A DNA stretch of 64,000 bases, from contig CAUYUJ010003003.1 of NCBI GenBank assembly GCA_963575745.1, positions 459,041-523,040 of the forward strand, in the 5' to 3' direction. The notes under the pieces are model-generated. The model did not search any database, was not told the DNA's origin, and was given only the letters and a program-made list of their open reading frames with translations. This DNA comes from Prorocentrum cordatum (lineage: Eukaryota; Sar; Dinophyceae; Prorocentrales; Prorocentraceae). Of this stretch, positions 41,583 through 61,545 are shown in pieces. Each line of letters starts with the position of its first letter. Positions within the stretch are counted from its first letter, which is position 1. The translations under genes were made by a program, and so were the position numbers.

Positions 41583-41935
41583 TTCGGTTTCGATGTTTTC
41601 TTCGTTGTCCCTCGTGCTGCCTGCGATCCGCCTTTTTTCCCCGCACACCGCAGTTGAAACGAAAGCGGCCCACGATATCGCCAGAACGCCGTGTGAGTCC
41701 AGCCCTTCCTGCCGCCGGCTCCCCCACAGCCTCGCGGCTGCTTCGTGGGTGGGCCGGCCGGCTGGCGGCGCCACTCGTAGCCAATGAAGCCTGCCCGTTG
41801 GCCCGGCTCGCCCTGCTCGCCGCCTGCGCTCTTTCGCTCGCGGCCGCGACCAACAAAAAGTGAGTCCAGCGCCCTCGCCAGCGGGGGGCTCGCGAGTCGT
41901 GGGCCCGAGGCACGCGCGCACGGGCGAGGGCGAGG

Positions 41936-42017
41936 GGAGGAGGAGGAGGAGGAGGAGGAGGAGGAGGAGGAGGAGGAGGCGGAGGAGGAGGAGGAGGAGG
42001 AGGAGGAGGAGGAGGAG
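41936..42017. repeat. (GGA)n tract flanking the LINE-1 3' end
   Basis: About 27 GGA units with one GGC break. Read along LINE-1 this is (TCC)n directly abutting the element's 3' end, where a poly(A) tail would be expected; the other flank (49001-49046) is the same repeat in the same orientation. Confidence 0.93.
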
Positions 42018-42148: not shown

Positions 42149-43510
42149 TTACTCAGAGGCAGCGCCAGCCGCGTGAGAAACGATCGCGGCTTCGGCTGCC
42201 GAAACATGCATAGCCTCTAGAACAGACTTGCTGGGACCCGATCTGGACGGATGGAGGCCTCGCCTGATCCTGCTGAGGTTTTCGAGGCCTTTGCCAGTGG
42301 GTCCCAGGGCCCTGCGCTCTCCCACTTGGTGGGTGAGAGGGCAAGGGAACTGTAAGCTTTTGACCTGGTGTGTGGCCGTATGGCCGCACTTCACGCAGAA
42401 GAACATTTGCCACTTGGGGATGGTGGCCAACGTGTGGGAGGGGTGTATCGCCTTGCCACTGATCACACGGGGACCCCTCGACCACAGCACCTCGCCACAC
42501 GCAGCAAACTCGGGAAGGGGGCAAGGCGGTACACACTCCGTGGCGGCGGCTGGAATAACCTGGCAAGCATCGACGATGATGAGGCAGGCAGAGCATCGCC
42601 ATTTGTCTGCACACCGCTCGAATTTGTGCTGTGAAGCCGCGATCGCGGTCTGCAACAGAGAACGAGGGGCTGCCTCCTGCGTGGGTTGCCTCTCTGGCCA
42701 CAGTCCTCGAGGCTCTGAATTCTTTCCTAAGGAACGTAGGATTAGTCGTGCCCGCTGTCGGACAATCGCTGTGATAGCATCGTATTCATCAGTCCTGGGC
42801 ACAGGCGGGAGGGCAAGGGTGGCCGACTTGCGGGCCGCGCTTCCCGCAAGCTCATCGGCTTGCTGATTGCCGAGAGCTGGGAATTTCTGAAAACCGTGAA
42901 GAGTCTGGGGATCGGCATGAGATGGGGTCCTGAGCACCGTGACCGAGGAGACGCCGCAAGGTCGATCCTGCACGAGATGCCGAATTCTCAGCCAGAGATC
43001 TCCATTCTTATTATTACCTCTGAGGCTGCATGGCCTGAGACATCTGCCATTCTGCCAACCGCGCTGCAAGGCTAGATGATCGGTAACAAACGTGAAATCC
43101 TGATGGCACGTCTCTAGTGCCAGGCAAAACGCATATAATTCTCCTCTTGGGACGGTCTGGCGGGGGCCTGGGAGGGGGGCAAGGAGGCCCGCGCGGGGGG
43201 TCCAGGAGGCCGAGGGAGGGTTCCAACGGAGGGCCGCGAGGCCAGATCCGACGCGACGTCGCCTGACGTCGTCAGAAAAGGCACCGCCAGACCCGTCACC
43301 AAAAAGAAACAACTCACCCTCTGCGTTACGAGCACCTTCCCAGGCCGGCAAACCCTCCCGCACCGCGCCAACAAACTCCCACCCGTCCCTCCCAGTCAAT
43401 GGCTCGAACGTGGGCGTAGTGAGAGCAACAGAGGGAATGCCACGGGGACCCACAAGGCGGGGTCGGCGTCGGCCCCCGCCTAGGCTCGCGGCAGTAGCTT
43501 GTCGCTGGCC
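42149..43510 (-). CDS. LINE-1 RNase H plus C-terminal zinc-finger ORF
   Basis: Open from just after a TGA at 43513-43511 to TAA at 42151-42149. It lies in the -1 frame relative to ORF2 and overlaps its last 30 nt or so; the first plausible in-frame start after ORF2 is only a GTG (43453), so expression probably needs a frameshift or reinitiation. RNase H residues are all visible: FGDGSGG (about codon 71), RGELYAFCLALE (about 121), FVTDHLAL (about 142) and the closing H..D in TPSHAD and GNQQADELAG (about 217). The C-terminal part has RCADKWRCSAC and FFCVKCGHTATHQVKSLQFP plus C, a probable zinc-binding unit as in LINE-2. It would degrade RNA in the RNA-DNA hybrid during retrotransposition. In LINE-2 the same module is fused in frame. 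Confidence 0.85.
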   Translation of the reverse strand, partial: GQRQATAASLGGGRRRPRLVGPRGIPSVALTTPTFEPLTGRDGWEFVGAVREGLPAWEGARNAEGELFLFGDGSGGAFSDDVRRRRVGSGLAALRWNPPSASWTPRAGLLAPLPGPRQTVPRGELYAFCLALETCHQDFTFVTDHLALQRGWQNGRCLRPCSLRGNNKNGDLWLRIRHLVQDRPCGVSSVTVLRTPSHADPQTLHGFQKFPALGNQQADELAGSAARKSATLALPPVPRTDEYDAITAIVRQRARLILRSLGKNSEPRGLWPERQPTQEAAPRSLLQTAIAASQHKFERCADKWRCSACLIIVDACQVIPAAATECVPPCPLPEFAACGEVLWSRGPRVISGKAIHPSHTLATIPKWQMFFCVKCGHTATHQVKSLQFPCPLTHQVGERRALGPTGKGLENLSRIRRGLHPSRSGPSKSVLEAMHVSAAEAAIVSHAAGAASE

Positions 43511-46500
43511 TCAAACTCGGGTCCAACGTTCGCCTCGCACTGCCACATTCGGTGAAACAAGGTTTCAGGAACTCCAGCGCTGCAGCGGTCGCAGTTCCTG
43601 TCGATCTGGTAGCCCGCGTTGTGAAGGCGGTCTCTGGTCCACTGTCCTCCGCCGATGATGGTGTCGTTGAGGGCCCAGTCGCTGAAGTCGCCGTTTGCGA
43701 GGAACCTCCTTTGTTCAATGCGGATAGTGACCATGTCTGCGCCACCAGCCAGCGTGTCTCCATGGGCATGCGTAGCGGCCTGCGTCCAGAGGAGCCTGTG
43801 TAAATCCTCGCTGAGGTCCTGCAATACTGCGTGAATGTCGGCGTCGAGGAGGTCGGGGTCGTCGGCAGGGGGGAGGTTCCACTCCTCGATGTAGCCGTCC
43901 TTCGTACGCCTCCACTTGGTAGCTGAGGCCGGCTCCCAACTAGCCTCCAGCAGGGTCGCGATGGCCGCGCCTGTGGGGCCCTTGACCTTACACCACAGCT
44001 TGGGGCCAGCGGCGAGCAAGGTGGTCTTGATCCTTGGCCAGGCTCTGATGATCCTGGCGCGCGTGCTCGGGTGGCGTATCCAGTGCTGAAGCCAAGCCTC
44101 GATGAGCTCGATCCTTAGGGAAACTCCTGGGTCCATGCCGTCAAAAGTGGCGCCGAGGAGGGAGGTGAGGCATCGGCCTGCGGCAGCGCCCGTGGCTGCA
44201 ATGGCGGCCTGACGCCGCCAGCGTAGTAGAGCGTGCCGAGCGAGGCCGTGAACCTGATGACCGAATACTCCTTCTGGGAGAGCACCAGTGCGCCACAGTC
44301 CAGCTGAGATTCGGGCCTGCTGTGCAGTGCTCCGTAAACGGTGTATCTTGCGAAGCCTGGCTGTGGCTGAGATATGTCGCTTCCTGGCTTTGGCTTGTAC
44401 ACGTCGAGTAGCCGCGGCCGCGTCAACTCCAAGGTCGACGGCCGTGGAGGTCGCAGTAACTGAGACGTCGTACTGTCGCATCTTCTTGGCTAGCGAGTGG
44501 CGGACCTTGGGAGTGGAGCCAATGAGGACGGTCTTGTCTGAGATAGGCAGCCCGAACTCCTTCAATCCGTCGCAGAGCGTCCTGGCGGCACGGGGGAGGT
44601 GCTTCTGTAAAGCACGTAGGACTCCTTCGACTCGAAGAACAGTGTCGTCGACGAAGGTCCACATCTGGGCAAGCTCTGCCTGAGCTTGGGCTTGTCGAAG
44701 AATTGGTAGCAAAATAAGTCGTGCCAGGGTGGTGCCGTGAGGGGAGCCTGCAATGATGCCTTTGGAGGCGAAGATAGGCATACTCACCCATTGCCGACTG
44801 CGCAAGAATCTGGGCGCCAGGTATAGCTGCACCTCCAATAATAGAATGATGGGAGGAAAGCCGCAGTTGAGGCCGACCATGATGAGGTTGGCGAGCTTGA
44901 TATTGTCGTAGAACTTCTGGATGTCTAATAGCAAGGTGGCCGACTGTATGCCAAGTGCTGAGGCTGTCTCGTCTAACAAGGCCCTATGTAGGGCGGCTTG
45001 GAGAGCTGAAGAGCCTTTGATGGCTGTAGTCCAAAAGTCGTCCAGACCTTGCGTCCAGGCTGCCGATGCGGTAGATCTAATGCGAGACCAGAGTCTGGCC
45101 ATATGTGGGAGCATGCCGAGGACCCTGTCGCCTCCAGACTTCTTGGCGGCGAGAGCTGCAATTGTGCCTGAAATTTGTAGTGGCCAGATGCCTGCTTGCT
45201 CCACTGAATTGAGGATATCTGCATAAGCTTCGACTGCTGGTTCTGGTAATCGATGGAGGTCGCGAGGTCCTAGGGCGTCAACTCCGTGTGCTTTACTGGG
45301 TGGCATGCGGCCGTGAATGCGGTGCACGATCTCGGCTGCGATGGGCTCGAGCGGTTGATGAGCAGCTGCTGCCTTGGCCTTTGACAGGGCCTGGAGGATG
45401 TCGTCGGAGGTCTCGGTGGCTTGCCATACTTGCTGCCATTGTTGCTTCTTGTTGTCCATGATGACGGTGGGGTCAGCGATGGTCAGGTTCCATTGCGTGC
45501 GGGCGACATGGGCGTGTAGTACTCCAGGGCGGTGCTTCCATTGCTGGGCGAGCCAAGCCCCGTAGGCCCTCTTGGACTTGGCGAGGGCGGCCGAGAGGGC
45601 TCTGGAGGCCCAGGTAGCGGCAATGGTGACCAAGTCGTCGGTGTCATCCTTGTCCAGGTGAGGGGCCCAGACGAGCGCAAACCAGCGGAAGATGGTGTCC
45701 TCATCCTTCTCGAACTGAAGGTCGTGCATGTGAGTGTTGAAGTGGTCCGCGCGCTGCTGGATGATGGTGGCCTGCTGCTGCATAAGCGCTGTGTGCTTGG
45801 GCTTGTCGTGAAGCGCGGCGTAGCGCTTGATGAGGGTGAGCGTAATTGCCCACCATTCCGAATGTGGGTCGTGTACGTGTACGCGGCCTGGGGCAGCAGC
45901 TGTCTTCTTCCAATATAACTGGTAGCCCTGAGCTCGGCCAGTGTATGCTGCAGCTTCCTTCGGGTCAATCTGGTGGTGGCTGATCATGGTGTTCTCGAGC
46001 GCCGTGACCCATTTGGCGTACTTGAGGTTGAGGACGTCGGCGTCGTGCACCCAGTGTCTGTACACGAAGTGCGCGTGTGGCTGCTTACAACGTGTGGGCA
46101 CCGCTTCCTGCCATTGTTTTTCCCACAAGTCCATCGGGATGGCATAGGGGATAGGTTCCTGTGCTGCGGGCTCGTCTTGTGGCTGAGGCTGTGCTGCTGC
46201 TTGTTGGAGTTCAGGAGGTAGATCACGGAGACGTGCTGCTCGAGCTTCAGCTGTTTTACGTTTCTTGATGGCGGTCTTGCTGTTGGGGTCTGGCGGAATC
46301 CTGGGTCTGCCCACTATGGGGAAGGACTTGGGGGTATCGATCGACTGATACCACCAGGGGTCTGCACTGCCTGCTCGAACTTCAAGGCCAACGTGGGTGG
46401 CCCAGGGTACTGTGGGGCACTGGCGAATGGAGATCGTGTGCTCGATGCCAGTCTTGACCAATGCGAAATCAAGCGTGAGTCCCTGGCCCTTGTCGCAAGT

Positions 46501-47523
46501 GGCGGATCCAGGTGCTCGCGCGATGGTAGCATTCCATTTGGCGAGCCACTCTGTCGCTGCAAGCTGCTCAGGTGTCATGTTCCAATCGGCCAGGATGATC
46601 CAAGGGTCTGTGAGCATAGTAACGAACGCTCCCAGCGAAAGTAGCTTATCGTGTACTGCACCCTCGATCTGCCTGTGGGGTTCCAGATGCGCGGCAATAA
46701 CAACCAAGTTGCCAGAACGTCTGTGCCATACCATGGGCGTGAAGCCGAGGAACGGGTCAGGCCTGCGCTGGGAGATGGCAAGGTCACGGAGGTGGTTGAA
46801 CGTAGTGGCCTGGACATGGTACCTGGATAAGATGATCTCGCCCCCCGTGTTGCCGCCGTCTGATCTACTGGTAGGAGTGGCCGTAGTCGATGATATTCTC
46901 CAACCATCCGCTGCTAGCTTGTCGTAGATGGGCGGCGCTTTTCCAGGCGAGATGCGTGTTTCAACTAATGCTACCATCTGATAGTGCTTGCCTGGTCGTG
47001 CCAACCATTTCTCCGACTGTGGCCCCCATTGAGTAATGTTGGAGAAGAACAGGGAATGGTCTGACAGCGGGGGCTTCGTAGGGCCTTCGTCTTGGCAGGC
47101 GGGACTAGGGTCGGCTCTCGGGCTGCTGGGCTTCCATGGCCCTTTCCCTGCGGGCGTGTCGACAGCTTTCGCCATCTCATCGCCCCCTACCAAGGACTGC
47201 GTCTTGGGCGGGGCGGCATCGGGGTTTGCCTTTGGCGAAGGCTCCCCTGGTTCCTGTACCACATGCACGTCGACAGCTTGTGCCGTCTCATCGCTCCCTA
47301 CCGAGGACAGCGTCTCGGGCGGAGCGGCATCAGGGTCGGACCGCGTAGCACGCTGCGGCTGCCCTGGGTCCCATACCACGGGGTCGACGGTCTGCGCCGC
47401 CTCATCGCCCCCTACCGAGGACAACGTCTCGGGCGGGGCGGTAGCGTACTGCTCGGAAACTGCGAAATCGATGTGGGCGTCCAACTCGGCCAGCTCGTCG
47501 AACGGGTCGAGGACTGCGTCCAT
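43480..47523 (-). CDS. LINE-1 ORF2: endonuclease and reverse transcriptase
   Basis: From ATG 47523 this encodes 1,347 residues, ending at TAG 43482-43480. Residues 1-140 hold three Pro/Glu-rich repeats of 37-38 residues (APPETLSSVGGDE). An exonuclease-endonuclease-phosphatase domain follows (about 183-381): VALVETRIS (catalytic Glu), WIILADWNMTPE, LTLDFALV and WATHVGL (catalytic His). The reverse transcriptase carries LGMLPHMARLWSRI, motif A LLLDIQKFYDNI (about 866), motif B GIIAGSPHGTT and motif C TFVDDTVL (about 958), that is FVDD rather than YxDD. LWRTGALPEG and a terminal CDRCSAGVPETLFHRMWQC (CxxC...HxxxxC) follow. The frame is also open upstream to ATG 48981, directly after the spliced leader, across all of ORF1. 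It should nick target DNA and copy the RNA onto it. Confidence 0.93.
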   Translation of the reverse strand: MDAVLDPFDELAELDAHIDFAVSEQYATAPPETLSSVGGDEAAQTVDPVVWDPGQPQRATRSDPDAAPPETLSSVGSDETAQAVDVHVVQEPGEPSPKANPDAAPPKTQSLVGGDEMAKAVDTPAGKGPWKPSSPRADPSPACQDEGPTKPPLSDHSLFFSNITQWGPQSEKWLARPGKHYQMVALVETRISPGKAPPIYDKLAADGWRISSTTATPTSRSDGGNTGGEIILSRYHVQATTFNHLRDLAISQRRPDPFLGFTPMVWHRRSGNLVVIAAHLEPHRQIEGAVHDKLLSLGAFVTMLTDPWIILADWNMTPEQLAATEWLAKWNATIARAPGSATCDKGQGLTLDFALVKTGIEHTISIRQCPTVPWATHVGLEVRAGSADPWWYQSIDTPKSFPIVGRPRIPPDPNSKTAIKKRKTAEARAARLRDLPPELQQAAAQPQPQDEPAAQEPIPYAIPMDLWEKQWQEAVPTRCKQPHAHFVYRHWVHDADVLNLKYAKWVTALENTMISHHQIDPKEAAAYTGRAQGYQLYWKKTAAAPGRVHVHDPHSEWWAITLTLIKRYAALHDKPKHTALMQQQATIIQQRADHFNTHMHDLQFEKDEDTIFRWFALVWAPHLDKDDTDDLVTIAATWASRALSAALAKSKRAYGAWLAQQWKHRPGVLHAHVARTQWNLTIADPTVIMDNKKQQWQQVWQATETSDDILQALSKAKAAAAHQPLEPIAAEIVHRIHGRMPPSKAHGVDALGPRDLHRLPEPAVEAYADILNSVEQAGIWPLQISGTIAALAAKKSGGDRVLGMLPHMARLWSRIRSTASAAWTQGLDDFWTTAIKGSSALQAALHRALLDETASALGIQSATLLLDIQKFYDNIKLANLIMVGLNCGFPPIILLLEVQLYLAPRFLRSRQWVSMPIFASKGIIAGSPHGTTLARLILLPILRQAQAQAELAQMWTFVDDTVLRVEGVLRALQKHLPRAARTLCDGLKEFGLPISDKTVLIGSTPKVRHSLAKKMRQYDVSVTATSTAVDLGVDAAAATRRVQAKARKRHISATARLRKIHRLRSTAQQARISAGLWRTGALPEGVFGHQVHGLARHALLRWRRQAAIAATGAAAGRCLTSLLGATFDGMDPGVSLRIELIEAWLQHWIRHPSTRARIIRAWPRIKTTLLAAGPKLWCKVKGPTGAAIATLLEASWEPASATKWRRTKDGYIEEWNLPPADDPDLLDADIHAVLQDLSEDLHRLLWTQAATHAHGDTLAGGADMVTIRIEQRRFLANGDFSDWALNDTIIGGGQWTRDRLHNAGYQIDRNCDRCSAGVPETLFHRMWQCEANVGPEFEASDKLLPRA
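47158..47500. repeat. Tandem repeat in the ORF2 N-terminal linker of LINE-1
   Basis: Three copies beginning gtcgac at 47158, 47269 and 47383 (111 and 114 bp apart, both multiples of three), each with cgccccctaccgaggac-like and gtctcgggcggggcgg-like blocks. The frame is kept in every copy. Confidence 0.92.
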
Positions 47524-47614: not shown

Positions 47615-48841
47615 CTAAAGAGGCTGCTGCGGTCCAGCGGCGGCGGCGGCAGTGGGCTTGCGCATCTGGCTGAGCATCTTCTGTGCCTTGTCTTCGAGGT
47701 CGGGGTCCTTGTTGAGTGCAGGTACAGGCTGTGTGGCGTAGCCGCCGTCAGAAGAAGCGCCAGCAGCAGGCGCGGGCGGCTCATCGCTTGGCGCCGCTGG
47801 CGGAGAGGGCGCAGTGCCCTCAGCATCCGCTGCGGCTGCCGCTGGGGGTTCGCCTGCTGCAGCCGTGGCGGCGGGCGGTGATCCACCTCCCTCTCTGGCG
47901 TGCCCATCCTCGTCAGCGCGCTGCCGCTTGGAGGCGAAGCGCGTGCGCATGGTGCTGGCCTCTGCTCGGAGCTGGCTGATGCGGCTGGCGGTGTTGCCGA
48001 AGAGCTCTGTGACCTTGGCCTTGAGCTCCGTGGCAAAGCGCTGTTGCAGGGATTCCCATGCCTGGCGGTCGCTGTCGTCGATGTCGAGGCCTTGGAGATC
48101 GAACGCTGCACCCGCTTCGATGGAGATGTCGCCGTCCTCGAGGAGGCTGGTGAGGTTGAAGGTCGGGTTCTGCTGCGACGGCGTAGAAGTAGCTGTGCCG
48201 CCCTTGCGGGCGGCTTGGAGTGCGTCGAGAGCCGCTTGGGCCTCCGCCTGGGCTTCAGCCAACTTGTAGGCGGCCTCCTCCGACGCCTGCTTGCGCTCTG
48301 TGTACCAGCTGAGCGCCTTCTGCTCGCTCTCCAGCAGCCTCTCCAGGTTGTTCTTGCAGCGGCGCTCCGTAGCCTGGGCGCGGCTGTAGATGTCGTTGAG
48401 GTCGGCTGGCTTCTGCGGCTGGGGCGGCGGAATCTGCGACTTGATGCCGTCAGTGGCTGCCTTGTCGATGTGGGGGGCGATCGCCTGGAGCTCCGCCAAG
48501 ATGTCCTCGGCGGAGCGAGCCTTGGGGGTGTCGTTCTTGCTGGCCCACCAGTCGTCGTCTTGGTCCTTGCCGTTGCCCTTGCCACGGCGGCGGCGGGACT
48601 TGGGCCATGATGACCACGGCTCCCAACCTCCCTCGGGGCTGGACTGCTGGGTGCACTTGGCCTCGGCCTGGGCTGCGGCTGAGACACGGGCCGCCCAAGC
48701 ACCTTGCACCGGAGGCGGGGCATCTGTCCACGGCGCCAAAGCTTTGCCACACCAGTAGCACGTCTGCTTGGTCTTCCAGTTCCAGGCGTACGAGCAGGAG
48801 TAGCACTTGACGTAGCCGCTGCGCTGCTGCGGAGGCGCCAT
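47615..48841 (-). CDS. LINE-1 ORF1: zinc-finger and coiled-coil protein
   Basis: 408 residues from ATG 48841 (MAPPQQRSGYVK). C13-x2-C16-x11-C28-x2-C31 (CYSC and CYWCGKAL) makes a small four-Cys zinc finger reminiscent of RanBP2 type. Residues of about 125-210 are heptad-like and Glu/Ala/Gln-rich (ERLLESEQKALSWYTERKQA, EEAAYKLAEAQAEAQAALD), a likely coiled coil; the C-terminus is Pro/Ala-rich. By analogy with other LINE ORF1 proteins it would bind element RNA and multimerise. ORF2's ATG lies 91 nt past its stop, in the +1 frame. LINE-2 ORF1 has the same order of features with little sequence identity. Confidence 0.85.
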   Translation of the reverse strand: MAPPQQRSGYVKCYSCSYAWNWKTKQTCYWCGKALAPWTDAPPPVQGAWAARVSAAAQAEAKCTQQSSPEGGWEPWSSWPKSRRRRGKGNGKDQDDDWWASKNDTPKARSAEDILAELQAIAPHIDKAATDGIKSQIPPPQPQKPADLNDIYSRAQATERRCKNNLERLLESEQKALSWYTERKQASEEAAYKLAEAQAEAQAALDALQAARKGGTATSTPSQQNPTFNLTSLLEDGDISIEAGAAFDLQGLDIDDSDRQAWESLQQRFATELKAKVTELFGNTASRISQLRAEASTMRTRFASKRQRADEDGHAREGGGSPPAATAAAGEPPAAAAADAEGTAPSPPAAPSDEPPAPAAGASSDGGYATQPVPALNKDPDLEDKAQKMLSQMRKPTAAAAAGPQQPL

Positions 48842-48981
48842 GGACGAGCTGAGGAACAGAGAAAGCTCACCTGCGGGCAGCAGGAGGCACACGGAGCGTT
48901 GAACAAAACTGTCGGGCTAGAGAGCCCTGGCACTGGCCGCGGACTAGCGGTATCCACTTGTTCCCCTGCGGAACTAGGCAT

Positions 48982-49003
48982 CTTGAGCCAAAATGGCTAC
49001 GGA
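48982..49003 (-). promoter_or_regulatory. DinoSL spliced-leader sequence at the LINE-1 5' end
   Basis: Reads T, CCGTAGCCATTTT, GGCTCAAG on the minus strand, identical to the 22-nt dinoflagellate trans-spliced leader (D = T). It is followed by ATGCCTAG instead of the GT donor of an SL RNA gene, so it is a leader already joined to an mRNA and copied into DNA. Upstream is (TCC)n. Confidence 0.95.
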
Positions 49004-49046
49004 GGAGGAGGAGGAGGAGGAGGAGGAGGAGGAGGAGGAGGAGGAG
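49001..49046. repeat. (GGA)n tract flanking the LINE-1 5' end
   Basis: Uninterrupted GGA units, starting at the GG that also forms the CC of the spliced leader on the other strand. Confidence 0.93.
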
Positions 49047-50085
49047 GGGGGCAGACCCGGCCACGCCTTTGGGGCAGCGTGAGGCCGCCGCACGTCGCGC
49101 AAGCCGCGCGCGCGCCGCGCGATGTTTGCGCGGTGGTCTCCGCGCTCTCGCGCCGCCCCCCCCTGGGGAGAGGGGGGCAGCGCTTCAGCACAAGCCGCGA
49201 TGCGCGAAGCGCGTTGAGCTTCGGGTCCCCAGGGGTGACATGGGACATCATAAAAATAAGAGTGCGAATACTGATACAATAATAGTAATAATAGCCTAAT
49301 AATAATATGATTAGAAGGAGAGGAAGACACAGAAGAAGAAGGCCATGACATCAGGGGAGATCTGTTCCGACATTACGATGGCTTCGATCTGGGCGTTGTT
49401 CAGCGATTTCGCCCTACAGGGCCCGTCACCAGGCCTCGAGGCAATGAAACACAGGTTCTGGGCGCAAGCCAGGCCCCGGGGAAAGGGATCGCGACCTCTG
49501 GAGCCGAGCAAGGAACGTATCGTATCGGATCATGCCTGGTTCGATAGGAGCGCATGCTTTTTGCTTTTCGTTGTAAGGGCTGTCGCCGAGCCCGCCGCAA
49601 GGAACGCCGAATGAGGAGCGCAGAGGCTTTTCTAGCCACGGAGAGCTTCGGCCACGACCAAGATCTCCAGAGCGGCCCGGAAACGAAGAGCCCCTGCCGA
49701 TCACACTGCGGTTCTACGCTCGGGACGCACGCTGTTTCTCGTTCGGCGCAACGGCCGTTACCGCGTCCTCCCCCCTTGAGCTTGTGTTTGTTTGCTGTGA
49801 GGCTCTGGCTAAATCTACTCGCGTAGCATTTTGCCCCCCCCCCCACACCACCACCCCCTTGCTGCCAAGTCATTCGGCACTGGGCCGAGAAGAACGCACA
49901 TGACTGATTTCGATGCACGTGATCTTCAACTTTCGTGGTCTGGGAATGTCTGGCAATCTTAGCTGGTCTGGGCCATTCCCAAAACCCGCCAGCGCAAGAC
50001 TTCGCTACTCCGCTCAAAGGTAATTATGGAAGTGCCTCCACCGGTACGGACGAAGAGGGGGGTGTAAAGAAGGGTTTACCGAATG
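49047..50085. other. No recognised gene
   Basis: Contains a GCGCGAAGCGCG-type segment (49196-49215), an AT-rich patch (49245-49330) and open frames in both directions without recognisable domains. Confidence 0.4.
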
Positions 50086-50089
50086 AGCT

Positions 50090-52639: not shown

Positions 52640-52765
52640 GCGGCTGAGGCTGAGGCAGGCTGATGCTGAGGCAGGTTGAGGCTGAGGCTGAGGCTGATGC
52701 AGGCTGAGGCTGAGGCAGGCTGAGGCTGAGGCCGAGGCTGAAGGCAGATTGAGGCTGAGAGGCCC
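52640..52765. repeat. GAGGCT hexamer tract
   Basis: Reverse complement of the CAGCCT satellite at 20372-21592, including the ccgaggctgaaggcagattg higher-order junction. Confidence 0.9.
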
Positions 52766-53084
52766 CTGGGAGTCCATGAGCGCGCCCGAAAAGACCAACC
52801 TCGAAGACGCCCGGAAACCACCTGGCCTGGGTGCCAGTGAGCGCGCCAGCGTGGGCGCGCGTGCGACAGTCGGTGCACTTCGCAATAGAAGAGCGCCACG
52901 TCAGCCGGGGAGCCAAAAGTGAACCGATTGGATTCTTTAGTTAGGCCACCATGCGTTTTCTGTGCACACGCAACCATGCTGGCTTCCACCAGACACCGTC
53001 GGAGATCTGGCGTGTCCCTCTCGACTCGGGGATCTTCTGACCCTGGTCGATCCAGATCCGGGTCAGCCAGGCCTCGCAGCATCC

Positions 53085-53183
53085 TGCAAGATCCTGCACC
53101 CAAGCCCGGGTCAAGGCGAAGGATCCTGCAGGATCCTGCGGGACACTGCACCCAAACCCGGGTCAATGCGACCCTGGCCATGC
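53085..53183. repeat. CAGGATCCTGCA-rich dispersed repeat, copy 2
   Basis: agatcctgcacccaagcccg, ggtcaaggcgaaggatcctg, caggatcctgcgggacactg, cacccaaacccgggtcaatg, cgaccctggccatgcagg; matches 8395-8535. Confidence 0.8.
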
Positions 53184-53247
53184 AGGAGGAGGAGGAGGAG
53201 GAGGAGGGAGGAGGAGGAGATGGAGGAGGAGGAGGAGGAGGAGGAGG
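53184..53247. repeat. (GGA)n tract flanking the LINE-2 3' end
   Basis: GGA units with one GGAGAT break. Along LINE-2 it is (TCC)n, joined to ...CTGCACCCTGCACC with no poly(A). Confidence 0.93.
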
Positions 53248-53399
53248 GTGCAGGGTGCAGGCAACCAAGAGTACGCCAGCAGGACTGACATACCTCAGCA
53301 CAAAACTGGGGACAAACAAAAACAAAGCCACACCAGGAAAAGCGAGGGGCCCCAGGACCGCACACGCCAGGATCCAGGGGGGCACAGCCCAAGGACAGC

Positions 53400-56300
53400 C
53401 TATGGCGGGGGCTTGGGGTCCCCTCCTCGCTGTCGTGGCTCGAGCCCACGGCTGATCCTGTCGATCGCCCTGAGCTGGCTCCTCCGAGTGCTGAGGTTGT
53501 CCGAGAGGCCTACACACTCACGCTTCAGCTTCCTGAGACTATTAACCTGCCACACTGAACAATGCCCTGCACAACGACGGCAACAATACATTGAATTAAC
53601 ACGAAAAACGTCGTGCCCAAGAGTCCCGCACTCCAGGATGAGGGGGTCTATATCATCCCCTGAGGCCCCGTCGAGCACAGGTGGCTGGGAGGGGCCTCCT
53701 TCGGCCTCCGCGGGGGCTCCTTGGGGCTCCAAGGCGGCAGCAGCATCTAAAGCAGCGGCAACGCGCTCATCACTCACTGGCTTCTCCCACTCATCGAGGG
53801 ACGTCCTGAAGAACTCATTTGTGAGGGCCTGGGTGACCTTGCTGGGCGCACACTTCCGACCACCACCAACACGCAGATTGTCGAAGGATGCAGGCGCGCG
53901 GGCGGAGGCCCCACACATTCTACACTTGAAAACGCCCGTCTTGACGTTTTTGCACAAGACATGATCATCCGCTTTTTGAAAGAGCACAGGCGCACGAATC
54001 TCCACTGGACGGGGCCCTGGAAACACATCACGGCCGTACTTCTGAGACTCCACCACCCTCTGGATTCCCCAGGACACATACTGAAGAACCTGTCGGTGCT
54101 CTTTCAGGGCGGTCATCACACTCTCAGTCGTCACCTTTGCGACAGCATGTTGAGCAGCGCCGACTCTTGCGAAAAAATCCGCCCAGGCATTGCCGAGCCA
54201 ATCTTGAATTTCCAAGGTACCAGCCCCCCCCAACACCACAGCTTCGATGTCTCGATGCGCAGGGGTCCACTGGAATGCTGGAGGCGGCAGCTTCTTGTCC
54301 CGCTTCTCAGCCGCAATAAAAATATCTCTCCACACTCGTGCATGCTGCGTTCGGCCGTGCTGAAGCTCGTCCACCCAAGTATTCCCCTCCTCCACCAAAG
54401 AGAGTAAATCGCTCACGAAAACCTCGTGGTTTGGATGAACAACCAGCCCCATTCGTATAGCATATCTTTCAGCACGGCCGACTGTCTGGATTAGATACGG
54501 CAATGGGCCGAAAATCGCCCGCTTCGGCAAGAAAGTGTCGGGGTCCAACTGGCATAGGCCCCAGCCACACCTCCTGGTTTCTGGCACATTCGACCCGAAC
54601 CCCGAACCGTCCGTGTACGACTTTGGCCCCCATTGCCCCTCTGTATCGCCCCAATACAAAACTTCTGAACTCACAGACTCCCTCGGAGGTAGCCCGACAG
54701 GAAGCTCAGGGATCCCATAGACAGGATATGTGTAGTCCCATTCGGGACGGCCTGCCCCGACTCCAGAATTCACCAGGCGATCTCGCACTTCGACGAGCTG
54801 TTCAGGCAGAGCAGCAAATTCATCATCGGGGTCGCCCTCCAAGAGAGCAGGGCAATCGTACAGGATGTGGCCCCAGCATTCGTTGATCTGGCGACCACAA
54901 GCTGCGCAAGGACGGAAGCGGCCTCCCGCCTTCAAATCCAGCCTGGCAGGTATAGGGATACCGTCGGCCCAATGTGCCTGAATCGCTCCCAGACGCTTCA
55001 CACAACGAATCCCCTTTATCGCATACCTGAGGGCCCTATGCCAGACTGGAATAGCTTCTCCTTCGCCCACAGTATAAAGATGCCGCAAGAGGCGGCCGTG
55101 TTGCCACCTCTGCACTCCCTCTATCAAGAAGTGCTTGAAATCTGCTGGGCTCAACATCCTGAGGTCGTAGACTCGGCCTAGGTCGCCCCTAACTACGTGG
55201 CTGGCGACGAGGTCCCAAGAGATCCTTCGGAGCGACAGCCATGTGGCCGCCATGGGGCCCCTGGCCTGGGCCCATGCGGCCTTCTGCGAGCCCCCGAACT
55301 TCTCGTTGAGCTTCTCCCAGGCCCTGTGAAGCCTGCTCGGTTGAACCCTGGAGTCCCAGATCCATTCCGAAAACTTAATCACAACCTGCAGAGTCGCATG
55401 GTATATGGGGTCATACTGGTCATTCTTATGCGAGATCAAATACGCCGTGAGCCCCGTGGAGGATCTGCCAGGAGCCCCATTGAGGACCGCCGCGAACAGC
55501 CTGAGCTCCTTCAAAGCCGAGTCGCTCACCCCCGCCACAGTGGCGCCGTGGCCCACTGACGGCAGGGCTCCAGTCCTCCACAACGATGTCACTCGCCTGC
55601 CTGTCGCCCTTCGCAGCATGGTGAAACGCTGGCGGCGATCTCTAAAACTGGTCAGGCGACGCTTCTCAATCCTACGCAAAACTCGAGGACCAGACAACTC
55701 GTGGCCTAAGTTCCTCATGTGGGCCTTGAACGGGATCTTCATGGAGCCCATGTACTTACTGACGGTCTTCCAAAGACGTTTTTTCCCAGGGATCCCGCCT
55801 GACTTCGCAGCATTTAAAACCATACCCAGCCCCTTGGAGTCGTGGACGAAGCCCTTGGCCGCAATGGCCAGATACTTGAGGTCCTCAGGGGCCTTCGAGA
55901 TGGACTGAAGCCCGACATCATCCATGAGGGTGCGGGGCGTGATCGTGACCGAGACCTGGTTTGCTCTGCTGACAGCCCTATACGTGAGCAGGTAGAGGAG
56001 GAACGTAGCATGCGTGCATCCCGCCAGAATTCCTTGGAAAGATACCTGCCCGACCGATACGCTACCAAACGCACGAATCCTTCGCGGCTGCTGGTAACTG
56101 CACACGAGCATCCACAGCAATCGCATAGAGAACCCCAAGGCTCTCCCTTCCCGCAACAAAGCGTGCGGGTCTACCATCTCGTAGCACTTGGACATATCCA
56201 AAAGAATCGTGCATGTGTTCTCACCTAGCAACTCGGCAATCTCCTGCTGCAAATTGTGGTCGAATGCCGAATCGCTCGAAGTCTGCCCCGATTTTGTGCC

Positions 56301-59249
56301 CCACATCTCATGACAGGCATAGCGATCCTGCCACTCCCTCGAAATCGGTCGTCTGAGTTTCCCCCATACACGTATCAATGTGTTACTCAGAACAATTAAT
56401 CGGTGATCGCCATCGGGTTTCGGCAGTCGCACGAGTTCGCTGTATATTCGATCTGCTGGCCAGCACAACCACCGTTCACACAGCATGAAGAGGTTGCCGA
56501 TTGCTTGGAGCGCGCCGTCGGACAGGACGTCCAGACTCCTCGGCGCCAACCTCGTAGGGCCAGCAGCTGTCTTGGTCGAAAAAGACCTTACCACATTCCT
56601 TACATCAGTAGAAGAGATATGGGGGAGAGCTTCCCACTCGCTGGAATCCGAAGGAAGATCAGGCGCTTGAAGCCGATGATGCGTCCATACCTTGGACCAA
56701 TGCCGCAAAGTCTGGTCCGCTAGCTGGTATGGCTGAGACTCCTGACAATATTGGAGTACTTCAGCTTGTGCTCGGACTTTGGACATCGCGTGGGCCCGGC
56801 TGGCCCCTTCCAAGAAAGACTCGCGAGCCCATTCTCTCCAAATCTTTTCCGTTCTAGAACGCTCCTGGCCTAAAACCTTGTCGGCCTGGGTGGATATGGC
56901 ATCGGTGATACTCTCAAAAATAGGATCGACTATCATCACCAACCCTTTTTGCAGAAATTCACTGAACTCCTCACCCAATTCCTTGAGCACCCACTGCTCA
57001 GCAGAAATCTTGTCACAGTATCTTCCAGCCTCGTCGAACGCCTGCAGCACCTTGAAGTACTGCATCTCAGTTAACGTGCACACCGCACTACATATTCGAA
57101 GCCGCTCACAAAAACGGTGCAGCTTGTCCTTCTCCGACCGCAGGTGGGCAACCCAACGCTTCGCCGTGGCCCACGCAGCCACCTTGGAGTCTCGATACTC
57201 TCGCCTTCGAGGTGGAGTCCATGTCATTTGTTCCCATTTGAATCGTGGGGGTCCAGCTCGTCCGACGAATTCCTTGGCCTTTGAATCGACTTTGTCAAAC
57301 CTCCCAGCAATCTCGAAATCAACGCCATCAAGTACTGCGTCCCACACACGCGGTAGGTCACTGGACGACTGCACAGACTCAAACATGCCTTTGATCCCTT
57401 CCCAATTGTACGGGTACCTCGCACATCCCACTGGTGGAATCGGAGGGAACTTCCTCGGTTCATCAGCTACTCGACACCACATGGGCCTGTCCGATCCGTG
57501 GACCACTAGCTGCACAGGAAAATGTGGGGGTGGAATGGTGGCTTGGGCATTCAAAACAACCGCCTGCCTGTCAAGTCTGGGAACCAGGTTGCTGGCGGCC
57601 AGAAAATAATCAATCTTGGAAGAACCAGCGTCGGTAATGCACGTGGCCTCCGAAGGAACAAACGCCAAGCCAGCAAGCTTCTCGACCCATCCCTTGACAT
57701 TGACGGCATAGAAGTCGCAGTTCCAATCACCGCCTATAACCCAGTCCAGTCCCAGAGCCTGCCACTGAGCTATCCTCTGCACAACTGCCCAAAGTATAGC
57801 AAAATTTTCCCCAGTCATGCCTATCGCCGTCACAAAGTAAACGCTAGTAAAGACAATGCCACCTGGGACCCCACATTGCACGTGGGCACATACCGCTCTT
57901 CCAGGATATATCACATGGCTACCGTCGGGGGGGGCGGTGATGGTAATGTTGGTGCGAGCAAAAACCACCACCCCACTCGAGTTGGACGTGGTCGACTCGC
58001 CCGTCTCTAAAGCTGCTGACCACAGCCCGTGCCAGCCTGCATCCCGCGCCCTATTCTGAAATTCTCCCAAACGGGCCTCCACGACTCTGGTCTCCTGCGC
58101 CAAGAGAACCGAGCCCTGGTACTCCGAGAGATACTCAAACAGCGGCCCATGCGAGCCAGCATTGACTGTCGTAATGCAACATCGTCTAGCCGACCTCGTA
58201 CCTGTGAGAGGTGGACCATCAGCAGCCTCGGTCGGGGCAATGACCGCGGGCTGCCCCCAACCGCCTGAACCAGCCGACCTAGACGTCGAACTGCCAGCAC
58301 TTGGCCCACCACCAGGGGCAGAGAACTGCCGAGTCGCCGAACTCGCCGCTGTCCTGGAACAGGAGGCCGACGCCGAAGCCCAAGCCCCTGGCCCACTACC
58401 AGGGGCAGACAAGAAACTGGTGGAAGCCGATGTACTCCACATACCAGCCTTCACTGGGGTAGGGCTTCCACTGGCCTCATTCACGCAATCACCTGCGCCA
58501 GTCAGCCCGACAACAGGTCCAGCGCTTCCGAGCACACAGCGGTCGCCCTCTATAAGCGCAGGGACGAAGGTAGGTCCCAGAACTGCACCAGGGGCAGAGA
58601 ACTGCCGAGTCGCCGAACTCGCCGCTGTCCTGGAACAGGAGGCCGACGCCGAAGCCCCAGCACCTGGCCCACTACCAGGGGCAGACAAGAACCTGGTGGA
58701 AGCCCTTGTACTCCACATACCAGCATTCACTGGGGAAGGGCTTCCACTGGCCTCATTCACGCAATCACCCGCGCCAGTCAGCCCGACAACAGGTCCAGCG
58801 CTTCCGAGCACACAGCGGTCGCCCTCTATAAGCGAAGGGACGGGGGTAGGTCCCAGAACTGCAATGTTTGACCCATCACGTGAAGTCGCACATCGACTCC
58901 ATGAGGAAACGCTCCCACTGGCCTCATTCACGCAATCACCTGTGCCAGTCGGCCCGACAACAGGTCCAGCGCTTCCGAGCACACAGCGGTCGCCCTCTGT
59001 AGCCGTTGGGACCGAAGCAGGTCCCATCCCTGCAAAGTATGTACCATCACCTGAAGTTGCACATCGACTCCATGAGAGAGGGCTTCCACTGGCCTCCTTC
59101 TCGCAATCACCAGTGCCAGTCAGCCCGACAACAGGTCCAGCGCTTCCGAGTACACAGCGGTCGCCACTCGAGCCCAACATTCCTTCCGTTCGCAGGGAAG
59201 GTCCTGCACTTTCCGAAACAACCATCATTCCAATAAAGATTCCAACCAT
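53400..59249 (-). CDS. LINE-2 ORF2: endonuclease, reverse transcriptase, RNase H and zinc fingers
   Basis: From ATG 59249 (MVGIFIGMMVVSESAG) to TAG 53402-53400, 1,949 residues. Order: tandem repeats (about 10-355); endonuclease (about 380-605) with VLLAQETRV, DWVIGGDWNCDF and SSKIDYFLA; reverse transcriptase (about 940-1120) with HRLIVLSNTLIRVWGKL, motif A CTILLDMSKCYEMVD, motif B GILAGCTHATF and motif C RTLMDDVGLQ (LMDD in place of YxDD); LWRTGALP; a CAACGRQINECWGHILYDC finger (about 1450); RNase H (about 1543-1700) with YTDGSGFG, VGRAERYAIRMG, VFVSDLLSLV and WTPAHRD..GNAWADFFA; then FKCRMCGASA and MYCCRRCAGHC. A single frame carries everything, unlike LINE-1. The frame is also open upstream through ORF1 to 60380. 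The ATG lies 31 nt after the ORF1 stop, in +1, allowing reinitiation or frameshifting. Confidence 0.94.
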   Translation of the reverse strand: MVGIFIGMMVVSESAGPSLRTEGMLGSSGDRCVLGSAGPVVGLTGTGDCEKEASGSPLSWSRCATSGDGTYFAGMGPASVPTATEGDRCVLGSAGPVVGPTGTGDCVNEASGSVSSWSRCATSRDGSNIAVLGPTPVPSLIEGDRCVLGSAGPVVGLTGAGDCVNEASGSPSPVNAGMWSTRASTRFLSAPGSGPGAGASASASCSRTAASSATRQFSAPGAVLGPTFVPALIEGDRCVLGSAGPVVGLTGAGDCVNEASGSPTPVKAGMWSTSASTSFLSAPGSGPGAWASASASCSRTAASSATRQFSAPGGGPSAGSSTSRSAGSGGWGQPAVIAPTEAADGPPLTGTRSARRCCITTVNAGSHGPLFEYLSEYQGSVLLAQETRVVEARLGEFQNRARDAGWHGLWSAALETGESTTSNSSGVVVFARTNITITAPPDGSHVIYPGRAVCAHVQCGVPGGIVFTSVYFVTAIGMTGENFAILWAVVQRIAQWQALGLDWVIGGDWNCDFYAVNVKGWVEKLAGLAFVPSEATCITDAGSSKIDYFLAASNLVPRLDRQAVVLNAQATIPPPHFPVQLVVHGSDRPMWCRVADEPRKFPPIPPVGCARYPYNWEGIKGMFESVQSSSDLPRVWDAVLDGVDFEIAGRFDKVDSKAKEFVGRAGPPRFKWEQMTWTPPRRREYRDSKVAAWATAKRWVAHLRSEKDKLHRFCERLRICSAVCTLTEMQYFKVLQAFDEAGRYCDKISAEQWVLKELGEEFSEFLQKGLVMIVDPIFESITDAISTQADKVLGQERSRTEKIWREWARESFLEGASRAHAMSKVRAQAEVLQYCQESQPYQLADQTLRHWSKVWTHHRLQAPDLPSDSSEWEALPHISSTDVRNVVRSFSTKTAAGPTRLAPRSLDVLSDGALQAIGNLFMLCERWLCWPADRIYSELVRLPKPDGDHRLIVLSNTLIRVWGKLRRPISREWQDRYACHEMWGTKSGQTSSDSAFDHNLQQEIAELLGENTCTILLDMSKCYEMVDPHALLREGRALGFSMRLLWMLVCSYQQPRRIRAFGSVSVGQVSFQGILAGCTHATFLLYLLTYRAVSRANQVSVTITPRTLMDDVGLQSISKAPEDLKYLAIAAKGFVHDSKGLGMVLNAAKSGGIPGKKRLWKTVSKYMGSMKIPFKAHMRNLGHELSGPRVLRRIEKRRLTSFRDRRQRFTMLRRATGRRVTSLWRTGALPSVGHGATVAGVSDSALKELRLFAAVLNGAPGRSSTGLTAYLISHKNDQYDPIYHATLQVVIKFSEWIWDSRVQPSRLHRAWEKLNEKFGGSQKAAWAQARGPMAATWLSLRRISWDLVASHVVRGDLGRVYDLRMLSPADFKHFLIEGVQRWQHGRLLRHLYTVGEGEAIPVWHRALRYAIKGIRCVKRLGAIQAHWADGIPIPARLDLKAGGRFRPCAACGRQINECWGHILYDCPALLEGDPDDEFAALPEQLVEVRDRLVNSGVGAGRPEWDYTYPVYGIPELPVGLPPRESVSSEVLYWGDTEGQWGPKSYTDGSGFGSNVPETRRCGWGLCQLDPDTFLPKRAIFGPLPYLIQTVGRAERYAIRMGLVVHPNHEVFVSDLLSLVEEGNTWVDELQHGRTQHARVWRDIFIAAEKRDKKLPPPAFQWTPAHRDIEAVVLGGAGTLEIQDWLGNAWADFFARVGAAQHAVAKVTTESVMTALKEHRQVLQYVSWGIQRVVESQKYGRDVFPGPRPVEIRAPVLFQKADDHVLCKNVKTGVFKCRMCGASARAPASFDNLRVGGGRKCAPSKVTQALTNEFFRTSLDEWEKPVSDERVAAALDAAAALEPQGAPAEAEGGPSQPPVLDGASGDDIDPLILECGTLGHDVFRVNSMYCCRRCAGHCSVWQVNSLRKLKRECVGLSDNLSTRRSQLRAIDRISRGLEPRQRGGDPKPPP
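58310..59215. repeat. Tandem coding repeats in the ORF2 linker of LINE-2
   Basis: Two 276-bp units (for example gagaactgccgag at 58321 and 58597) and 171-bp units (ctggcctc at 58747, 58918 and 59089) share the block encoding GDRCVLGSAGPVVGLTGAGD C, present five times. Both periods are multiples of three (92 and 57 codons). Confidence 0.95.
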
Positions 59250-59280
59250 CACACTGAACGTATTGAACACAAGCGAGATC

Positions 59281-60354
59281 CTACTCGGCCGACGGCTTCT
59301 GCCGCTTGCACATGGAGAGGTAGCTCGTCTGCATCTTCCTGATCTTGCCTCGCAACATCTCCGCGTCATCCGTGGGTTGGGCTGGAATCCCTGCTGCGTC
59401 CAGAGTAGCCCGCAGATCATCCACGTCCATGGACTCAACATGTGGCGCAGGGTCCTCCTCGGGCGTCTGTTGCGGTTGCTGCTGTGGCTCTTCCTGGGGT
59501 GGCTGCGCCGCAGGGAGTTCGCCGAGCTTCTTGATCGTGGCCGCCATCGCCTGCAGCTCATCCAACAACTCTGGAGGAACCCCCAGCCCAGAAGCAACCG
59601 CCCCCAGCTGCTCGACCGACACAGAGAGCGTGGGGAGCATTTGCCGCAACGAAGGAGGCCCTTCACCACTGCCCTCGGGTGGCTGAGCCTTGGACATGGT
59701 TGCCCTCGTCTCACACTCAAGCCGCAGGACCTCCTCCTTGGCCTCCACCAAACGCGTGTCGAGGCTCTCCAAGACCGTCTGGAGCTCGTTGATCTTGCTC
59801 TGCTGCTCATCGCGGGCCTTCTGCAGCTGCGTTTCCTTATGCCGAGCACTTTGAAGCCTGTTCGCCAAACTGCGGGCCTGCTCTTCAACTGGTCTGTCAG
59901 CGAACAAGGCCGTCTCGAGGGCAGACTTCTCGTCTCGGTACCGTCTGAGCAGCTCCTCGTCCTGGGAAAAGCCTCCGCTAGCCACCTGCTTGATGAGACC
60001 TTCCAGGTACTTGATCCTGCTGCGCTTGTCACATTGCTTAGAATCAGCAGCCCAAGGATGAGGGTTCCCAGTACCTGAATCAGGGGGAGAACGCCTTGTT
60101 GCTTGAAGCTGTCTGACTTGCTCTTGAAGCTCCGCACACTTGGCCTCGAGAGTGGCAGACCGAGTAGAAGTGCTTGGAGATTCCGACTGCTTGAGATTCT
60201 CTTTGAAGCACACGGACTTGTGCAGGCTGCACTGGCGGCAGTACGTGACCCCTGCCTTGTTGAACCAGGGTTTCTTCGTGACAGCGTGGACGCAAAATCG
60301 ACAGGTCCAATTCTCACTCTCATTCTGCCGCCGCCTCGCCGCCTTCGAAGACAT
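59281..60354 (-). CDS. LINE-2 ORF1: zinc-finger and coiled-coil protein
   Basis: 357 residues from ATG 60354 (MSSKAARRRQNESENW) to TAG 59283-59281. Zinc finger: W16-T-C18-x2-C21, then C39-x2-C42 (NWTCRFC ... TYCRQC). A long Glu/Gln/Lys/Leu-rich coiled coil spans about 65-220 (LRRYRDEKSALETALFA, RHKETQLQKARDEQQSK, INELQTVLESLDTRLVEAKE), then a Pro/Gln-rich segment and a C-terminal helix-like AEMLRGKIRKMQTSYLSMCK. The assumed role is RNA binding and multimerisation. The start was chosen because upstream extension has no ATG in frame and the finger lies directly after it. Confidence 0.87.
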   Translation of the reverse strand: MSSKAARRRQNESENWTCRFCVHAVTKKPWFNKAGVTYCRQCSLHKSVCFKENLKQSESPSTSTRSATLEAKCAELQEQVRQLQATRRSPPDSGTGNPHPWAADSKQCDKRSRIKYLEGLIKQVASGGFSQDEELLRRYRDEKSALETALFADRPVEEQARSLANRLQSARHKETQLQKARDEQQSKINELQTVLESLDTRLVEAKEEVLRLECETRATMSKAQPPEGSGEGPPSLRQMLPTLSVSVEQLGAVASGLGVPPELLDELQAMAATIKKLGELPAAQPPQEEPQQQPQQTPEEDPAPHVESMDVDDLRATLDAAGIPAQPTDDAEMLRGKIRKMQTSYLSMCKRQKPSAE

Positions 60355-60509
60355 GGAATGGCTCGGGAAATCCGAGCCACGTGGTGTAGCAGCTGCTGGG
60401 GCGATCCAGCACTGCAAAGAAACTGATCGGGCGCAAGCGCCCTCGCACTGCCGCGGTGTCAGCGGTGTCCGTTTCTGCCTATGCGGGCTCAGCCCGCCAA
60501 GACAAAGCT

Positions 60510-60531
60510 CTTGAGCCAAAATGGCTACGGT
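60510..60531 (-). promoter_or_regulatory. Inner DinoSL copy of LINE-2
   Basis: A, CCGTAGCCATTTT, GGCTCAAG on the minus strand (D = A), followed by AGCTTTGTC. There is no GT donor after CAAG, so it is a retained leader, not an SL RNA gene. Confidence 0.96.
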
Positions 60532-60553
60532 CTTGAGCCAAAATGGCTACGGA
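60532..60553 (-). promoter_or_regulatory. Outer DinoSL copy of LINE-2
   Basis: T, CCGTAGCCATTTT, GGCTCAAG on the minus strand, joined head-to-tail to the inner copy with no intervening base. (TCC)n precedes it. Confidence 0.96.
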
Positions 60554-60690
60554 GAGGAGGAGGAGGAGGAGGAGAAGGAGGAGGAGGAGGAGGAGGAGGA
60601 GGAGGAGGAGGAGGAGGGAGGAGGAGGAGGAGGGAGGAGAGGAGGAGGAGGAGGAGGAGGAGGAGGAGGAGGAGGAGGAGGAGAAGGACT
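60553..60690. repeat. (GGA)n tract flanking the LINE-2 5' end
   Basis: Long GGA tract with GGAGAAGGAG and GGAGGGAGG breaks, on the promoter side of the element. Confidence 0.93.
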
Positions 60691-61545
60691 TGAGCCCCGA
60701 CCTCTCGGCTCCTCCACGTCGCCGCTGGCGAAGGCCGCCGGAGAGGCGGGGTCGGACGGCATGGCTGGCTCCGCTCGGGTGCTGCCGCGGCTGGCCCTGG
60801 CCGAGCCGGGGCTGGACCTGGACGTTGCTTTTTTCGTGGCGTCTTCGCTTCCCTTTTCGATGTGCTCCACCTGTGCTCCTGCACTAGGAGGAAAACAAAC
60901 CTACCTCGCTTTTGACCACCCTCGCTTCCAAGAGATACCAAACGATGCCAAATTGCGGCCTGTACTGGTCAGGCCGCTTGACGAGGAGGCGCGTGGTATG
61001 GCTTGGTCTTGCCTGGAAGCGAAAGCGGGGGAGGTAATTCACGCTCTGAATTTCGATGTGCTCCTCCTGTGCTCCTGCACCTCCCTCCCAAAACGAAAAA
61101 AACAAGGCACGGCCGAAGTCCAGCAGAACAGCGCTCAGGTCCAGCCCTGGCCAAGCCTGTCGCGTCGCCCTGGACCCCCGGCCTCCCGAGACCTCCTGGG
61201 GACACTTTCGGGCGTGGGGGTCGCTTGGGGGATACGGCAGGTTCATGCCGTGTCGACCCCGGCGTTGGTTCCCGACATCGCAGGGATCCTTCGACCTTGA
61301 ACGATCGGCCGTTCCCGAAACGTCAGGATGGTTCAACATCGCCCGATGCCGGGTCGCCGGCGACGTTCAACGTTGAAGACCCGTGTCGGGGCTCATCCGT
61401 GGGTGCCGACACAGGTCATATCTGGCCGACCCTGGCTGACGAGTGGGTCACACATGTCCCAAGTAGCTTGGGTTACGTAGGCCAGGTGCAACCCAGCTTG
61501 GCATCCACTGATAACTGATAACCCCCCGTCTCCCCTCAGCAACCC
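60691..61545. other. No recognised gene; local duplication
   Basis: tttcgatgtgctccacctgt at 60855 and tttcgatgtgctcctcctgt at 61051 start two partly similar segments of about 50 bp. Frames are open both ways (minus YLPRFRFQARPSHTTRLLVK is the most protein-like) but no family is recognised. Confidence 0.4.

Follow-up and report, generated by a model that had tools for sequence, protein, structure and literature searches.

The window analysed here, a 64-kb stretch of Prorocentrum cordatum DNA, contains two LINEs, both on the minus strand; in both, an ORF1 bearing CxxC pairs at its N-terminus is combined with an endonuclease and a reverse transcriptase. Each starts with complete spliced-leader (DinoSL) sequence and has CCT microsatellites at its two ends. 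The features, listed from the 5' to the 3' end of each element, are:

60553..60688, minus strand: CCT (pyrimidine) microsatellite directly upstream of the LINE-2 outer leader (Tandem Repeats Finder, 60554-60688, 44.7 copies)
60552 to about 53248, minus strand: LINE-2, whole element
60532..60553, minus strand: outer complete DinoSL of LINE-2 (exact match; first base T, possibly part of the adjoining repeat)
60510..60531, minus strand: inner complete DinoSL of LINE-2 (exact match; first base A)
60450..60470, minus strand: LINE-2 hairpin motif GGAyACCnC...GnGGC, within a 68-nt block common to LINE-1
59281..60354, minus strand: LINE-2 ORF1 (ORF list; ATG start; N-terminal CxxC pairs; relative P0013 86 % identical)
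53400..60380, minus strand: LINE-2 ORF2 open frame (Pfam; relative P0003 aligned over 58310-53433)
about 57582-58142, minus strand: LINE-2 endonuclease (Pfam Exo_endo_phos, 20.2 bits, under the curated cut-off of 24.5)
about 55800-56423, minus strand: LINE-2 reverse transcriptase (Pfam RVT_1, 24.6 bits, under the cut-off of 29.6)
53248..53399, minus strand: LINE-2 3' untranslated region, without A-tail (from the sequence)
53184..53247, minus strand: CCT microsatellite at the LINE-2 3' end (Tandem Repeats Finder)
49003..49047, minus strand: CCT microsatellite abutting the LINE-1 leader on its 5' side (Tandem Repeats Finder)
49002 to about 42018, minus strand: LINE-1, whole element
48982..49003, minus strand: single complete DinoSL at the LINE-1 5' end (exact match)
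48936..48955, minus strand: LINE-1 hairpin motif, in the shared block (motif scan)
47615..48841, minus strand: LINE-1 ORF1 (ORF list; ATG start; N-terminal CxxC pairs; P. cordatum protein P0009)
43480..47523, minus strand: LINE-1 ORF2, with the reverse transcriptase at about 44536-45144 (Pfam RVT_1, 36.5 bits, above the cut-off of 29.6)
42149..43453, minus strand: LINE-1 RNase H-like part (Pfam RNase_H, E 0.013, under the cut-off), in a different frame in the window copy
41932..42017, minus strand: CCT microsatellite at the LINE-1 3' end (Tandem Repeats Finder)

LINE-1 and LINE-2 represent separate families, since their long frames are only 21 % identical. The similarity between their 3' untranslated regions is weak, 32 of 1,000 mononucleotide shuffles being equally good. 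Relatives of LINE-1 at 85-95 % identity are P. cordatum proteins, and one of them, P0009, spans both LINE-1 frames, that is, ORF2 and the RNase H-like part. In the window copy, a stop at 43453-43480 separates the reverse transcriptase from the RNase H-like part; P0009 reads through at this place, and the window copy looks decayed. No Pfam match was found for the endonuclease of LINE-1. An eight-protein profile had its best match in the LINE-1 ORF2 protein (E 4.2e-18), followed by R2 (9.3e-9), and also matched ExoIII (E 1.8e-7). In the LINE-2 relative P0003, the endonuclease and reverse transcriptase domains both exceed the Pfam cut-off. The non-LTR reverse transcriptase, the APE-like endonuclease, a self-comparison that revealed internal repeats only and no long terminal repeats, and the 5' truncation of one copy (L131, described below) place the elements among the APE-type non-LTR retrotransposons. 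LINE-2 also contains internal tandem repeats, with units of 171 and 276 bp, at 58310-59165 between ORF1 and the endonuclease.

A scan for the 21-nt DinoSL core, allowing up to three mismatches, detected three exact copies in the window (60532-60552, 60510-60530 and 48982-49002), each of them on the minus strand, and 100 dinucleotide-preserving shuffles of the window contained none. In a scan for further relics, again with up to three mismatches, these did not exceed chance, with four matches including the three leaders and 1.9 expected. The two complete, abutting leaders that the earlier note had described at the 5' end of LINE-2 are borne out by exact matches, and their first bases differ as it had claimed, T in the outer and A in the inner one; that note does not mention that LINE-1, too, has a leader at its 5' end, the third in the window. 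The LINE-2 pair forms a perfect 22-bp repeat (60509-60552, 100 %), so that an A likewise follows the inner leader. In both LINEs a CCT tract adjoins the leader and another one, on the same strand, lies at the 3' end. The window has 24 clusters of CCT/AGG tracts, and the chance of a same-strand tract abutting a given position is about 0.06 %.

The genome assembly (4,128,499,153 bp in 21,875 contigs) contains 14,218 exact DinoSL cores. We searched it with the 309 nt located 3' of the inner leader of LINE-2, leader excluded, and scored the best 40 of 377 candidates; a 5' query of this kind is blind to 5'-truncated copies. Twenty-five of these 40 match from the first base, the window copy included, and the upstream DNA was read for all 39 matches outside the window. 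A complete DinoSL stands exactly at the first base in all 24 other close copies, with different flanks; it is single in 23 of them and followed by a 15-nt relic in the remaining one (L120), and a complete leader tandem was found in none of the 24. The leader is also present in 14 of 14 more distant relatives, 13 times exact and once with one mismatch (L137). L131 matches the query only from base 159 on and is directly preceded there by a CCT tract, with no leader; this is a 5'-truncated copy. Upstream of the 39 copies and relatives, the sequence is of the CCT class in 35 and at least 80 % pyrimidine in 38, and an AGG tract occurs in none. Unrelated, leader-free 5' ends, which the earlier note had named as evidence against its reading, were not encountered among the copies with an intact 5' end.

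For LINE-1, 39 of the best 40 matches (out of 1,056 candidates) begin at the base after the leader. Upstream of eight copies we found six exact leaders, one leader with a single mismatch and one assembly gap, that is, all seven readable copies are headed by the leader. The surveys thus show that both LINE-1 and LINE-2 have the leader as a fixed 5' end. The LINE-1 5' UTR pattern is also present in L077, L079 and L095; the piece of L079 that was read (L106) showed no close match to LINE-1 protein. Since the copies carry the leader as their own 5' end and lie in CCT-type repeats, it is well supported, as far as genomic sequence can tell, that LINE-1 and LINE-2 move as trans-spliced, leader-capped mRNA. 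The proposal of the earlier note that a LINE with endonuclease and reverse transcriptase travels in this form is in this respect supported by the 24 leader-headed close copies and 14 relatives of LINE-2. Present-day transcripts of these LINEs would then be expected to carry the leader as well.

The tandem of the window copy is a different matter. In the earlier note, the two complete leaders and their differing first bases were taken to show that LINE-2 had passed at least twice through the whole cycle of trans-splicing, reverse transcription and reinsertion. In favour of two rounds, the repeat begins exactly at the 5' end of the leader, as a transcript end would, the first bases of the outer and inner units do differ (T and A), seven more complete tandems exist in the genome, all of them having T as the base between the units, and two of 100 leader sites (L021 and L054) have a second leader that is complete but degenerate. 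The relevant parts of PMC3229502 and PMC12014239 describe, however, a recycled leader that is cut after nucleotide 7, the AG at this place being the next acceptor. In fact, tandems of an exact leader and a truncated 15-nt relic number 1,202 in the genome, against only eight complete ones. Two rounds would moreover need an AG directly before the older leader, and the CCT tract before the outer leader has none. The A found between the units is unique to the window copy; it is the first base of the leader at only five of 100 sites (T at 88), yet it is identical to the base that follows the inner leader, as predicted for a copied unit. With no complete tandem in any of the other 24 LINE-2 copies, we regard two rounds as an unlikely source of this tandem, and the reading of the complete pair as their record is not supported.

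Most likely, the tandem is a local duplication, in one copy, of the 22-nt unit made up of the leader and the following A. Such a duplication could have come about by a template jump at the 5' end of the transcript or by slippage. A single step would explain the perfect 22-bp repeat, the A at the junction, the missing AG and the close copy L108 (99 % over 309 nt), in which the leader is single and followed by A; the junction base in the 24 close copies is G in 20, A in two, T in one and absent in one. That the unit begins exactly at the leader end speaks for an event at the end of the transcript rather than for random slippage. The signature of an element recycled twice, a leader followed by a 15-nt relic, is absent from the window and present in L120 and L089, so at the sequence level repeated rounds are evidenced by other copies. 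L021 and L054, in which the leader is followed by the degenerate complete second leader and then by common sequence, possibly belong to a family with older complete tandems.

The repeat setting was also studied at leader sites in general, using the first 100 listed of the 14,218 (contigs C1-C114), which are not a random draw. The 40 nt upstream of these sites contain a CCT tract in 41 cases, an AGG tract in 19, another simple repeat in nine and none in 31. At random positions (20,000 draws from the loci read and the window), the corresponding values are 1.2, 1.1, 5.0 and 92.7 %, so that a CCT or AGG tract lies right upstream of 60 of the 100 leader sites versus 2.4 % of random positions. Twenty of the 100 sites were read with 9 kb of downstream DNA, and nine of them, corresponding to eight distinct elements because L042 and L043 overlap, encode an endonuclease and/or a reverse transcriptase (reverse transcriptase in eight, endonuclease in nine). 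Every match to these two domains is on the leader strand; the single RNase H match (L034) is on the opposite strand, about 8 kb away. The 19 sites with AGG instead of CCT upstream, a situation found at none of the LINE-2 copies, may represent a different class of leader-tagged insertions.

The 3' junctions are known from few copies. Among the eight distinct LINE loci, the same repeat flanks both sides in five, being CCT in L024, L035 and L040, ATC in L027 and ACAGAC in L043, where the 5' side is short. As for the other three, L041 has a repeat on the 3' side only, L025 has none on either side and the end of L026 lies outside the region read. No run of ten or more A was found in the distinct LINE loci examined. 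The microsatellite is the putative insertion target. It might instead be a product of insertion or of later growth at the junctions; simple repeats are common, as the tract clusters of the window illustrate, and element ends resembling CCT could seed tracts on the 5' and 3' sides. This origin seems improbable to us, since the repeat type varies from locus to locus and still matches across the element, as in L027 and L043, which is the pattern expected of a target.

An error of assembly, which might be suspected because the tandem adjoins a 136-bp repeat and is unique among the 25 copies matching from the first base, is a poor explanation of its presence: the 22-bp unit is well inside the read length of any technology, and seven further complete tandems occur in the genome. 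SLACS and CZAR are trypanosome LINEs that lie inside leader genes and, like the elements described here, are linked to spliced-leader sequence. A comparable origin by insertion into leader RNA genes could draw on the 14,218 leaders and on the existence of leader genes, of which L003, a chimeric MAG contig with rDNA, offers a leader followed by GTACGC; it can nevertheless be ruled out for practical purposes, as the upstream DNA is a microsatellite with flanks that differ per copy, the leader is complete and at the 5' side only, and the GTA that a leader gene would have after the leader was found at none of the 100 sites. Unlike SLACS and CZAR, LINE-1 and LINE-2 would thus carry a leader that comes from their own mRNA.

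The leader as 5' end, the CCT or pyrimidine tract upstream on the coding strand and the 15-nt relics are read directly from the DNA. Based on them, we propose the following course of events. LINE RNA would be trans-spliced like other dinoflagellate mRNA, and the leader-capped mRNA would undergo target-primed reverse transcription into a CCT-type microsatellite. A complete DinoSL would thereby stand at the head of each full-length copy, and in many families a conserved hairpin motif comes next. Taken as a whole, that is, trans-spliced APE-type LINEs, target-primed insertion into CCT-type microsatellites, copies headed by the leader and a tandem due to duplication of the leader with its A, we hold this account to be highly probable.

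The CCT tract of an inserted copy lies directly upstream of the two AGs of the relic leader, and the copy would therefore carry a ready acceptor. The upstream pyrimidine tract may then act as the signal for the next trans-splicing, the insertion site in this way resupplying the 5' processing signal. The single leader of most copies suggests either that the last AG of the leader itself is used, which would make the leader self-renewing, or that these copies descend from a few sources free of relics. Under self-renewal, the CCT repeat would give the pyrimidine tract and the relic leader the acceptor AG, and each trans-splicing would remake the leader. We can only tentatively extend this to a whole class of dinoflagellate LINEs that would have ceded their 5' end to the host, with DinoSL as a component that renews itself in every round. 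Target choice would then be coupled to the processing of mRNA in a single system, and the machinery involved, when working on host mRNA, would also have produced the thousands of leader-tagged insertions in the genome; such an extension has somewhat more against it than for it.

Just 3' of the leader, LINE-1 and LINE-2 agree at 51 of 68 nt, with a score of 45 compared with 33 for the best of 2,000 dinucleotide-shuffled pairs. The hairpin core of this block (GGAyACCnC, loop, GnGGC) lies at most 130 nt from the leader at 15 of the 100 sites; with the two window elements, this makes 17 of 102, and a scan of both strands of the window gave no further occurrence. At the third stem pair, 13 cases have G-C, four have T-A and none has a mismatch, which points to a compensatory change. 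The folding stability of the 5' UTRs is not exceptional (z 0.12 to -0.75); the 5' ends match no Rfam family, and no HDV-like ribozyme was detected up to E 5 in 41800-61000. L030, L032 and L036 (near position 501) have some 170 nt in common, including the hairpin motif at their 5' end, and then diverge. Their 9 kb contain no reverse transcriptase, with only a weak endonuclease match in L036, and they are perhaps non-autonomous or chimeric insertions.

In elements with a single leader, 25-26 or 38 nt separate the leader from the hairpin core. This distance rises to 41 nt in L012 and L081, 54 in L080 and 69 in L089, and these larger distances correspond to 15-nt steps of one, one and two relics, respectively, the relic of L081 being degenerate. 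Endonuclease and reverse transcriptase were confirmed only in L089 (locus L105) among these relic-bearing loci. L089 has a leader and two relics, and its endonuclease and reverse transcriptase are 42 % identical to those of LINE-2; by the accepted signature, the two relics make it a LINE that cycled at least three times. The 15-nt ladder offers a clean count of retrotransposition rounds on one element, and the leader combined with the hairpin motif may serve as a marker for full-length LINE insertions in very large genomes.

The kinds of sequence involved, that is, LINEs, relic-tagged retrogenes and repeat-targeted LINEs, are all known, and in the open-access papers searched we found no report of a dinoflagellate LINE that has the leader as its 5' end. 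The Tx group, said to have been described by Kojima and Fujiwara in 2004 (a reference of PMC3747384), reportedly consists of non-LTR elements targeting microsatellites or RNA genes. The likeness to our elements lies in an APE-type LINE inside a simple repeat that is present on both sides. To our knowledge, a 5' leader is not a feature of that group. Dinoflagellate retrogenes with a relic DinoSL were reportedly described by Slamovits and Keeling in 2008. As in those retrogenes, a DNA copy of the leader here heads the retrocopy at its 5' end, and 15-nt relics mark further rounds. Unlike them, the mRNA that is retrocopied is the retrotransposon's own, and whole families are found in CCT or pyrimidine repeats. 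These retrogenes are cited in passages of PMC3229502, PMC6050394 and PMC12014239, and a section of PMC6050394 puts the share of leader-tagged retrogenes among the genes of two Symbiodiniaceae genomes at between roughly one fifth and one quarter.

A further comparison within trans-splicing protists is with the L1Tc/ingi elements and their Pr77, which are also LINEs with a short conserved 5' block (excerpts of PMC4748587). According to the same excerpts, trypanosomatid L1Tc has an internal promoter and unspliced, leader-free transcripts, although its host trans-splices. In LINE-1 and LINE-2, by contrast, the leader is the 5' end of the DNA itself and no ribozyme family was matched. The retroelement behind dinoflagellate retroposition is called unknown in a part of PMC6050394, where LTR elements are favoured. 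Elements of the LINE-1 and LINE-2 type are a plausible source of the enzymes for gene retroposition; given LINEs that bear the leader themselves and share their repeat setting with other leader-tagged insertions, non-LTR elements become a candidate open to direct testing.

LINEs have also been suspected in the endogenising of RNA viruses, in the portion of PMC10235124 that deals with this subject. Using P0003 as query, we found no LINE relatives in viral contigs, and a single, unrelated contig bore the leader. This IMG/VR contig (L001, 7157 bp, AT-rich) has two exact DinoSLs on the minus strand (2746-2766 and 2893-2913), one of them before a 254-aa ORF; a virus may here have taken up a host gene together with its leader tag, or may imitate the leader. 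The prokaryote collection contained two leader-bearing contigs, which resemble dinoflagellate sequence in MAGs. In L002, from a Dehalococcoidia MAG, an ATC-type repeat at the start of the contig is joined directly to a complete DinoSL (32-52) and followed by bacterial-looking sequence; the contig is apparently chimeric, part of it being dinoflagellate DNA, and adds a further junction of repeat and leader. L003, from another Dehalococcoidia MAG, carries eukaryote rDNA in which a DinoSL (4334-4354, minus strand) precedes the GTACGC mentioned above, and the site looks like a leader RNA gene in an rDNA spacer.
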